A DNA stretch of 64,000 nt from assembly GCF_020405225.1 (NCBI RefSeq), contig NZ_CP084473.1:124001-188000 (forward strand), written 5' to 3'. The DNA is from Natrinema sp. DC36. Its GTDB lineage: Archaea > Halobacteriota > Halobacteria > Halobacteriales > Natrialbaceae. The notes under the pieces were generated by a model. The model made no database searches. It had not been told where the DNA came from and was given only the letters and a program-made list of their open reading frames with translations. The position numbers were made by a program, and so were the translations under genes. Of this stretch, positions 24,450-53,165 are shown piece after piece. How positions within the stretch are numbered: position 1 is the stretch's first letter; the number at the start of each line of letters is the position of its first letter.

Positions 24450-24851
24450 CTACTCTTCGAAGGTCAGTCCATACCCCCACTCTTCGAGATGCGCTTCGAC
24501 CTCATCGAGATGATCCAGCCCTGCCTTCATCAGAGCTTCCCGAAGGTCGGTAAGCGAGACATCGTCGTCGAAGCGGTCCTCGAGCTCTCGCTGGGCGTCA
24601 CGTTCACTGTTCTTGGTTTCACTCTGCAGGAACAGCGGGACGCGTTCACGGCCATCCTGTACGCCATCACGCCGAAATTTGTACGGGATCTGCATCGATC
24701 GTCTCTGTCGAGACGATTGTGTTGACTCAGTCTCCACAGTTTCGGACTCGGATGTGGCCGTCTCAGTCGTTGTCGTTTCTTCAGTTGTATCCGTACTTTC
24801 GTCGCTCGAGGCGAAAGGATCCTCGCCAGCTCCCTCTTTCATGCCAGTCAT
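24450..24851 (-). CDS. ParA partner protein, putative centromere-binding
   Basis: 133 residues: a Thr/Glu-rich disordered N-terminus (1-45), then RRSMQIPYKFRRDGVQDGRERVPLF with QSETKNSERDAQRELEDRFD, and a C-terminal helical part SLTDLREALMKAGLDHLDEVEAHLEEWGY. No classical ParB motif is present. Its ATG overlaps the parA stop (ATGA-type), so the two proteins are made together, as with non-ParB adaptors in type Ib/III partition systems. I infer that it binds the 13-bp array upstream of parA; the low-complexity N-terminus may stimulate the ATPase. Confidence 0.65.
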   Translation of the reverse strand: MTGMKEGAGEDPFASSDESTDTTEETTTTETATSESETVETESTQSSRQRRSMQIPYKFRRDGVQDGRERVPLFLQSETKNSERDAQRELEDRFDDDVSLTDLREALMKAGLDHLDEVEAHLEEWGYGLTFEE

Positions 24852-25747
24852 GCGGATAGCACCTTGTGGTCAAGGTCACCGGGCTCCGGCGGATTCGGCG
24901 CTTCAATCCCCACTTGCTGCTCTAAGTGACGTGCAATCCGGTCGAACTGTGCGAGTGTCTCGATTTCGTAGTCCCGCTGCCGGTCTCGGTGTTCTCGGAC
25001 GTACTCGAACGCCGAACACTGTTGCATCCAACAGCCTTCCATGAGCGACGCACGTTCCCCGATAATTTCGGGAATTGGGTATTCGATTTCGTCGAGAATC
25101 GTCCGCTGGTCTCGTGTGTTTTTGAACCCGACCGGGACCGCAGCAAGAACGCCAACTTCGACGTCCAGTTGGTCCTCGAGACCGGCGACAAGCGATTCGA
25201 GACCCTCGACGGCAGCCCGCCCCTTCGCGCTCGGTTCGACGGGGATGACGAGCGACCGCGTGGCGTGGATGGCGTTGTAGAGATGGGGGCCCTCGGTCGC
25301 TGGCGGGTCACAGATGAGCACGTCGTACTCGTCTGGTACGCCGGCTTCGCGAAGGACACGGAGTAACTGCGCGTGCATCCCGAACGCTTCCCCCATCGCT
25401 TCTGCTTGGTCTTTCTCGCGCTGGAGGTACTCGGCGAGGTCCGAGAGCATGTTGTGTTCCGGGATGATGTCGACGCCTTCGACGGTCCGGACGAGGTCGT
25501 CGAACTCGCCACTTGGCCGCCGAATCATATGTCGGACGAGATTATCGACGGACTCGGTGCGGTCCGTGTCGACGCCGAAGAGTCGGGAGAGATCGCCGTC
25601 CTGTGGATCGAGTGGGACGACGAGCGGTTTCAGGCCAGCTCGTGCGTGTGCGACTGCCAAGTTTGCGGCTGTCGTCGTTTTGCCCACCCCACCTGCCTCA
25701 CTGTACGTCGAGTACGCTAACATACTCTCGTCATGAACACCATCCAT
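24848..25747 (-). CDS. parA: ParA family partition ATPase
   Basis: 299 residues. The deviant Walker A reads SEAGGVGKTTTAAN (residues 16-29), keeping the P-loop Lys but with Ala18 where most ParA proteins have the signature Lys of KGGVGKT; this variation occurs among haloarchaeal ParA-like proteins. Walker A' VVPLDPQDGDLSRLFG and Walker B YDVLICDPPATEG follow, then the IPVEPSAKGRAAVEGLESLV region. ParA forms a dynamic gradient on the nucleoid that positions plasmid copies. First gene of the par operon; its 5' region carries a phased 13-bp repeat array and one inverted copy of the repeat core at 25762-25768. Confidence 0.9.
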   Translation of the reverse strand: MDGVHDESMLAYSTYSEAGGVGKTTTAANLAVAHARAGLKPLVVPLDPQDGDLSRLFGVDTDRTESVDNLVRHMIRRPSGEFDDLVRTVEGVDIIPEHNMLSDLAEYLQREKDQAEAMGEAFGMHAQLLRVLREAGVPDEYDVLICDPPATEGPHLYNAIHATRSLVIPVEPSAKGRAAVEGLESLVAGLEDQLDVEVGVLAAVPVGFKNTRDQRTILDEIEYPIPEIIGERASLMEGCWMQQCSAFEYVREHRDRQRDYEIETLAQFDRIARHLEQQVGIEAPNPPEPGDLDHKVLSA

Positions 25748-25811
25748 CTTGAAAGTTCGGTGTGTTCATTCATTCTTGTAGTTCGTTATGTGTTGTGGTG
25801 GGGTTCACTGA

Positions 25812-25980
25812 TGAACACCATCAGTGAACATAGTGAATGAACACAGTGGTTGAACACAGGTAATGAATACATGTAATGGAAACACTCACTGAAGTGGCTT
25901 AATGAATGCATGGGGGGAACACACCCACTGAAGCGTCTTAATGACTGTATTTGGTAGAAGTCATTAATGAATCCGGAGAC
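25812..25980 (+). repeat. phased 13-bp tandem array, candidate partition site (centromere)
   Basis: Thirteen units begin exactly every 13 bases (25812, 25825, 25838, 25851, 25864, 25877, 25890, 25903, 25916, 25929, 25942, 25955, 25968). The best units read TGAACACAGTGGT, TGAACACAGGTAA, TGAATACATGTAA and TGAAGTGGCTTAA; the core is TGAAYAC with AT-rich ends. Weaker units still keep the TGA or GAA in phase. It lies 65 bases upstream of parA and runs into the remains of the TRAM gene. Direct phased repeats are typical of partition sites bound by ribbon-helix-helix-like adaptors. Confidence 0.7.
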
Positions 25981-52994: not shown

Positions 52995-53165
52995 ACGGTG
53001 TCTCTACGGGCGACAGGCATAAATTGACGCCCCTGTCTGGAGTCAGTCGGTGAACAGCGGGCAGTCTCGATGTCGGTCAGTGAACACGGGGTTGTCCCTG
53101 TCGCGTCTCCCGGTCGGACAGTCGTCCCCAAAAGACTATTGAGCGGGTATGCGAACTACTACCGT

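Follow-up and report, generated by a model that had tools for sequence, protein, structure and literature searches.

An array of thirteen 13-bp units upstream of a parA gene in the haloarchaeon Natrinema sp. DC36 is, in our assessment, very probably the centromere (a parS-like site) of a plasmid partition operon composed of parA and a small partner gene, and the end of the array nearest the promoter is probably the operon's operator too. The same spacing, five site sequences and the same two-gene operon recur across the haloarchaea, and the array is thus probably a plasmid centromere; a role as the operon's operator is likely as well, because the array ends at the promoter. The DNA analyzed, hereafter the window, is a 64-kb stretch (positions 124001-188000) of a 320-kb replicon, in a genome of seven contigs and 5.1 Mb. 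The original prediction had called the array a partition site of a type not described for haloarchaea, and no counterpart, nor any described haloarchaeal partition site, was found in the open-access literature, which cannot prove absence. The form of archaeal plasmid centromeres and the segregation of multiple replicons in halophiles are listed as outstanding questions (PMC5120986). With the array, many haloarchaeal megaplasmids, among them those of Halobacterium salinarum NRC-1, Haloferax mediterranei and Haloquadratum walsbyi, gain a specific centromere candidate that can be put to the test.

The phased array and the par operon

The main array occupies positions 25812-25980 on the minus strand, its 13 units starting every 13 bases from 25812 to 25968 (25812 + 13n). 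Given as plus-strand 13-mers from 25812, units 1-4 are TGAACACCATCAG, TGAACATAGTGAA, TGAACACAGTGGT and TGAACACAGGTAA, units 5-8 are TGAATACATGTAA, TGGAAACACTCAC, TGAAGTGGCTTAA and TGAATGCATGGGG, and units 9-13 are GGAACACACCCAC, TGAAGCGTCTTAA, TGACTGTATTTGG, TAGAAGTCATTAA and TGAATCCGGAGAC. The core is of the TGTTCA type when read toward parA and is TGAACA on the plus strand. Autocorrelation, which had been proposed as a check of the phase, is dominated by lag 13 and its multiples (z 4.5-8.4): across 25812-25980 the lag-13 identity is 0.50, with a z of 6.5 over the shuffle mean, and z is 5.3 at lag 26, 8.4 at lag 39 and 4.5 at lag 52, while 0 of 2000 dinucleotide-preserving shuffles matched the lag-13 z at any lag. 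The top 169-bp stretch for lag 13 in the whole window begins at 25738. A 39-bp block of three units is repeated within 25861-25944, and because lag 39 is so strong, we take this block to have been duplicated in part of the distal half.

Independent evidence came from a 13-column weight matrix built from 42 other subfamily-A loci (ParA of at least 78% identity) with the window excluded, the training positions lying one or two periods away from the cores in these loci. Ten of the 13 register positions exceeded the 99% background level, all on the minus strand and in one register (25808, 25821, 25834, 25847, 25860, 25873, 25899, 25912, 25938 and 25964), and nine of these ten were at or near the 99.9% background level or better. 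Autocorrelation and matrix agree with the coordinates and with the count of 13 units in exact 13-base phase from 25812 that the original prediction gave. Its extent of 25812-25980 was right as far as it went but too short, as two further units belong to the array. The inverted unit TGGGGTTCACTGA (25799-25811, plus strand) adjoins the first array unit and has a matrix score of 9.1 (background p ~1e-4), and the unit TGGTGTTCATGAC (25730-25742, minus strand) lies in the interval between the promoter and the ParA start, six periods off the main array and in register with it, overlaps the upstream ParA start and scores above all background. The inverted GTGTTCA core that had been reported at 25762-25768 is real; its unit, GTGTGTTCATTCA (25760-25772, plus strand), stands next to the parA promoter and also scores above all background. 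Elsewhere in the window, a two-copy 30-bp tandem repeat with a TCAGTCAGTGAACAG stretch is present at 53035-53090.

The array lies directly upstream of a promoter-like element, CCGAACTTTCAAGAT (25746-25760, minus strand, ~22-37 nt before the ParA start), which we read as BRE/TATA. In aligned upstream regions this element is kept across ParA subfamilies A, B, D, E and F (TCTGACGNANTTTCA / ...TATTATAT), whose arrays are completely different. The parA gene (24848-25723, minus strand) encodes 291 aa from its MLAYSTYSEAGGVGKTT start and matches Pfam AAA_31/CbiA and PHROG ParA-like; an alternative upstream start at 25747 is also open, and orthologues begin at MLAYS in RefSeq. The protein has no N-terminal DNA-binding domain, with Walker A at residues 8-16 and AAA_31/CbiA-type domains only. 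Where the ParA family has KGGxGK it has SEAGGxGK, the signature lysine being replaced by alanine, and the deviant Walker A motif with the signature lysine (KGGxGKT) is therefore absent from this ParA. The substitution is common to all ParA subfamilies of this haloarchaeal family, and a ParA-family member that likewise lacks the lysine is known in beta-McdA type 1 (PMC8262871).

The partner gene (24450-24851, minus strand, 133 aa) has a start that overlaps the parA stop (ATGA), and its product consists of a conserved N-terminal MTGMKEGAGEDPF peptide (consensus across relatives MTGMKxGxGxDPF), an acidic linker that varies and a C-terminal domain that is conserved. Relatives of the partner are ~125-245 aa long, and the subfamily A protein is one residue short in the V-PLFL stretch, which is VHQLFV or TVQLHL elsewhere. 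The partner matched no Pfam, NCBIfam or PHROG family, and these scans showed no ParB or HTH domain such as the HTH/CTPase ParB partner of type Ia ParABS would have; nor did the partner have a PDB relative by sequence or a detectable relationship to any known centromere-binding protein. In AlphaFold monomer models an extended stretch leads into three helices of high confidence, and the N-terminal half is modeled with low confidence. The strand-helix-helix order in these models resembles, and would suit, a ribbon-helix-helix (RHH) domain, though profile comparison gives no support: the profile-profile probability against 30 haloarchaeal RHH domains was 0.5%, a match as poor as that of the winged-helix HTH control (0.2%), so that sequence gives no basis for an RHH assignment. 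Fold searches with the partner models returned no PDB match above noise, and UBA-like three-helix bundles were rejected with Z ~6-7, within the tool's stated noise level.

Constant phase and changing core across Halobacteria

Relatives of ParA were compared in 74 genomes of the same family and at 45 further loci. The operon of parA and a small partner gene with an ATGA overlap is found throughout Halobacteria, on plasmids or secondary replicons; its two genes are constant, their 4-base overlap is nearly always kept, and the other neighbors vary. The partner is present in 116 plasmid-collection records, with all genera haloarchaeal among the matches listed, and no partner relatives were found in viral contigs. 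The best upstream period is 13 bp in 126 of 154 loci and 26 bp in nine more, while the usual best lags in 2137 control windows are 9, 21 and 12 (codon multiples), with 13 outside the eight commonest. The 13-bp period is shared by every one of the larger ParA clusters (at 42-100% identity to the ParA of the window), with a Stouffer z at lag 13 of 37.8 in subfamily A, 26.4 in B, 15.7 in D, 14.9 in E and 13.3 in F. The loci that fall under the control 99% level all have a ParA of <54% identity (E, F and nearby singletons), and arrays are shorter there; in F, the most distant subfamily, they are short and often not significant singly.

In subfamily A, 513 of 711 same-strand GTTCA pairs (counted when within 130 bp of each other and no more than 600 bp upstream of parA) are spaced at multiples of 13, and such pairs are almost absent further upstream and in genes. 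Phase and core are kept across 43 distinct subfamily-A loci, the cores being conserved far above the spacers. Within 600 bp the median number of sites per array is 14 and the maximum 39, and distinct clusters are often found 250-450 bp upstream. The array is likewise seen in Halobacterium salinarum pNRC200, Haloferax mediterranei pHME132 and Haloquadratum walsbyi PL100. The arrays upstream of parA at loci L039, L040 (13 units that share a register, plus an inverted half) and L093 of Halocatena marina (32 matches in one register) are very regular or long and would be good substrates for structural work.

The core varies with the ParA subfamily and the phase is invariant, the five subfamilies having unrelated cores: TGTTCA in A, TCTTAGA in B, TTGTAAC/GTTTGT in D, GGTTAGNCTAACC in E and CAGTNNNACTG in F. 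Because the period survives a complete change of core, we suggest that protein-protein geometry, and not sequence, determines it. In a nearest-neighbor comparison, the ParA subfamily was recovered from array 6-mers alone in 103 of 118 loci (chance 25%). Units of B, D, E and F show dyad symmetry (correlation 0.75-0.95), which those of A do not (0.31); such palindromes would be expected if each unit held one dimer. In A, B, D and F there are secondary autocorrelation peaks, at 13k+4 and 13k-4 (lags 4, 9, 17, 22, 30 and 35), which suggest that there is an inner half-site shifted by 4 or 9 bases. A comparison with other haloarchaeal parA upstream regions had been suggested at the outset; these regions have the same period and operon with co-varying cores, and as judged from sequence the comparison supports a partition site of an operon of parA and a non-ParB partner as the best explanation. 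Of 45 pairs of operons that share a genome, 3 fall within one subfamily, where 9.8 would be expected (P ~0.004, with genome kinship outside the statistic), which fits incompatibility between like centromeres. With five or more recognition sequences set on the same geometric framework, these arrays form a natural set for the protein-DNA code and for incompatibility rules.

The 320-kb replicon itself has three parA loci of this family, one of them truncated, and the window operon may therefore be redundant on it. The second parA (50-916 of the replicon) has 48% identity. The truncated parA (~47 residues; C2:219193-219333, locus L021 at 219193-219430) has its own upstream array, which aligns with that of the window and is one 13-bp unit shorter, plus substitutions; a further, shorter length difference lies outside the array, beside the neighboring gene, and the duplicated segment at the truncated locus takes in the end of the neighboring upstream gene. 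The exact sequence TGTTCA-N7-TGTTCA occurs five times in the 5.1-Mb genome, all in the two par arrays of this one replicon.

Alternative readings of the array

The array could be an autoregulatory operator of parA and its partner only, with the centromere elsewhere. Its place directly upstream of the promoter-like element, with one unit overlapping the promoter-start interval, would suit such a role, as would the double function of type Ib partner proteins as repressors (PMC5016525). However, with a median of 14 sites and as many as 39 in 600 bp, and often with clusters 250-450 bp upstream, the arrays extend far beyond a promoter, and the genome has no second array of the same motif but that of the duplicated par locus, so we consider this reading unlikely.

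No replication gene adjoins the array in the window or in nine annotated plasmids examined, and in seven of the nine there is none within the stretch shown. Together with a motif that tracks ParA and the partner, and a position and phase fixed to the parA start, this leaves very little probability for an iteron-type replication origin standing beside parA by chance, even though tandem iterons are typical of plasmid origins and orc1/cdc6 lies no more than 4.5 kb away in the other two of the nine plasmids. Type Ia ParA proteins bind their own promoters, and ParA itself, not the partner, might be what reads the array. Since ParA and the partner are always inherited together, the motif co-varies with both, and co-variation therefore cannot tell which of them reads the DNA; nevertheless, this ParA begins at the P-loop with no N-terminal helix-turn-helix domain, and in known analogues it is the small partner that reads long centromere arrays, which leaves a DNA-reading ParA highly improbable. 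Slippage could account for the 39-bp duplication in part of the distal half and for single units gained or lost, but a functionless neutral satellite is scarcely credible given the cross-genome conservation that contradicts it, with phase and core kept in 43 subfamily-A loci, phase kept in five subfamilies with unrelated cores, and cores conserved far above spacers.

Known partition systems and a proposed mechanism

For the array as a plasmid centromere, the best reading by analogy is that the haloarchaeal par system works like type Ib partition, in which an upstream array of direct and inverted repeats is combined with a small partner with a flexible N-terminus and a promoter at the array edge (PMC5016525). 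Here we find a ParA without an N-terminal DNA-binding domain, an upstream array of direct and inverted repeats as candidate centromere, and a small partner gene with parA whose product is modeled with a flexible N-terminus and a folded C-terminus. We do not claim membership of type Ib, because this ParA is without the signature lysine and the RHH fold of the partner is putative.

Similar to the delta/omega/parS system of pSM19035, the operon combines a ParA-like ATPase and a small partner with short tandem non-palindromic repeats, direct and inverted, that overlap par promoters, and the arrangement of one dimer per repeat with a protein helix around straight DNA is proposed here by likeness to that system (PMC9499535; PMC5016525). 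At least four contiguous repeats are required for ParA activation in the best-studied type Ib case (PMC9499535). In contrast, the pSM19035 repeat is 7 bp and ours 13 bp. Omega has been proven to have a ribbon-helix-helix fold, but no RHH profile is matched by this partner; delta and omega have separate transcripts, whereas here there is one overlapping operon, and the ParA here is without the signature lysine. The ParF/ParG/parH system of TP228 also has a direct and inverted repeat centromere upstream of the operon and a small partner with a flexible N-terminus and a C-terminal DNA-binding domain, a role that is predicted for the domain here (PMC5016525), but its repeat unit and spacing are different and its partner is of the RHH family, to which no sequence relationship of this partner was detected.

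Among archaeal systems, SegAB of Thermoproteota and Euryarchaeota likewise has a ParA-like ATPase and a small partner with overlapping genes, an unstructured N-terminus and a C-terminal DNA-binding domain, and SegB wraps DNA (PMC9178275; PMC12284271). SegAB is chromosomal and SegB is RHH, whereas our operon is plasmid-borne, and a 13-bp-phased array upstream of the operon is absent from the description of SegAB in the accounts consulted. The AspA-ParB-ParA system of Sulfolobus pNOB8 is another archaeal plasmid partition system with a non-ParB centromere-binding protein (PMC9178275), but it has three proteins including a ParB adaptor, and here there are two conserved genes.

We propose that one partner dimer would bind each 13-bp unit through its C-terminal domain, and that dimers would load cooperatively on the units by analogy with type Ib. 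Adjacent dimers would be rotated by ~86 degrees around the helix to give a spiral nucleoprotein filament over a run of units; the winding of protein around the DNA that the original prediction had imagined is a plausible geometry, with 13 bp making ~1.24 turns and four units ~5 turns. The N-terminal MTGMKxGxGxDPF peptides of the partner would face outward from the spiral, where they would touch nucleoid-bound ParA-ATP and stimulate its ATPase, so that plasmid copies would be moved apart, and filled promoter-proximal units would repress the operon. More tentatively, and as a possibility that we rate somewhat below even, haloarchaeal plasmids may widely carry a separate class of partition machine, in which a lysine-less ParA and a centromere-binding protein of undescribed fold reading a changeable-core array of strict 13-bp phase would allow several mutually compatible centromeres per cell.

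The phase may be diagnostic of the partner family. The same cell has two other plasmids (C3:1-230; C4, record ends/1-185; loci L028, L026 and L027) with a parA of the ordinary KGGxGKT type, and the genes that follow these parA genes are similar in layout to the partner. The array upstream of the C3 parA has a period of 8 bp (TGAATCA-like), and that of C4 has a period of 9 bp (AACGA).
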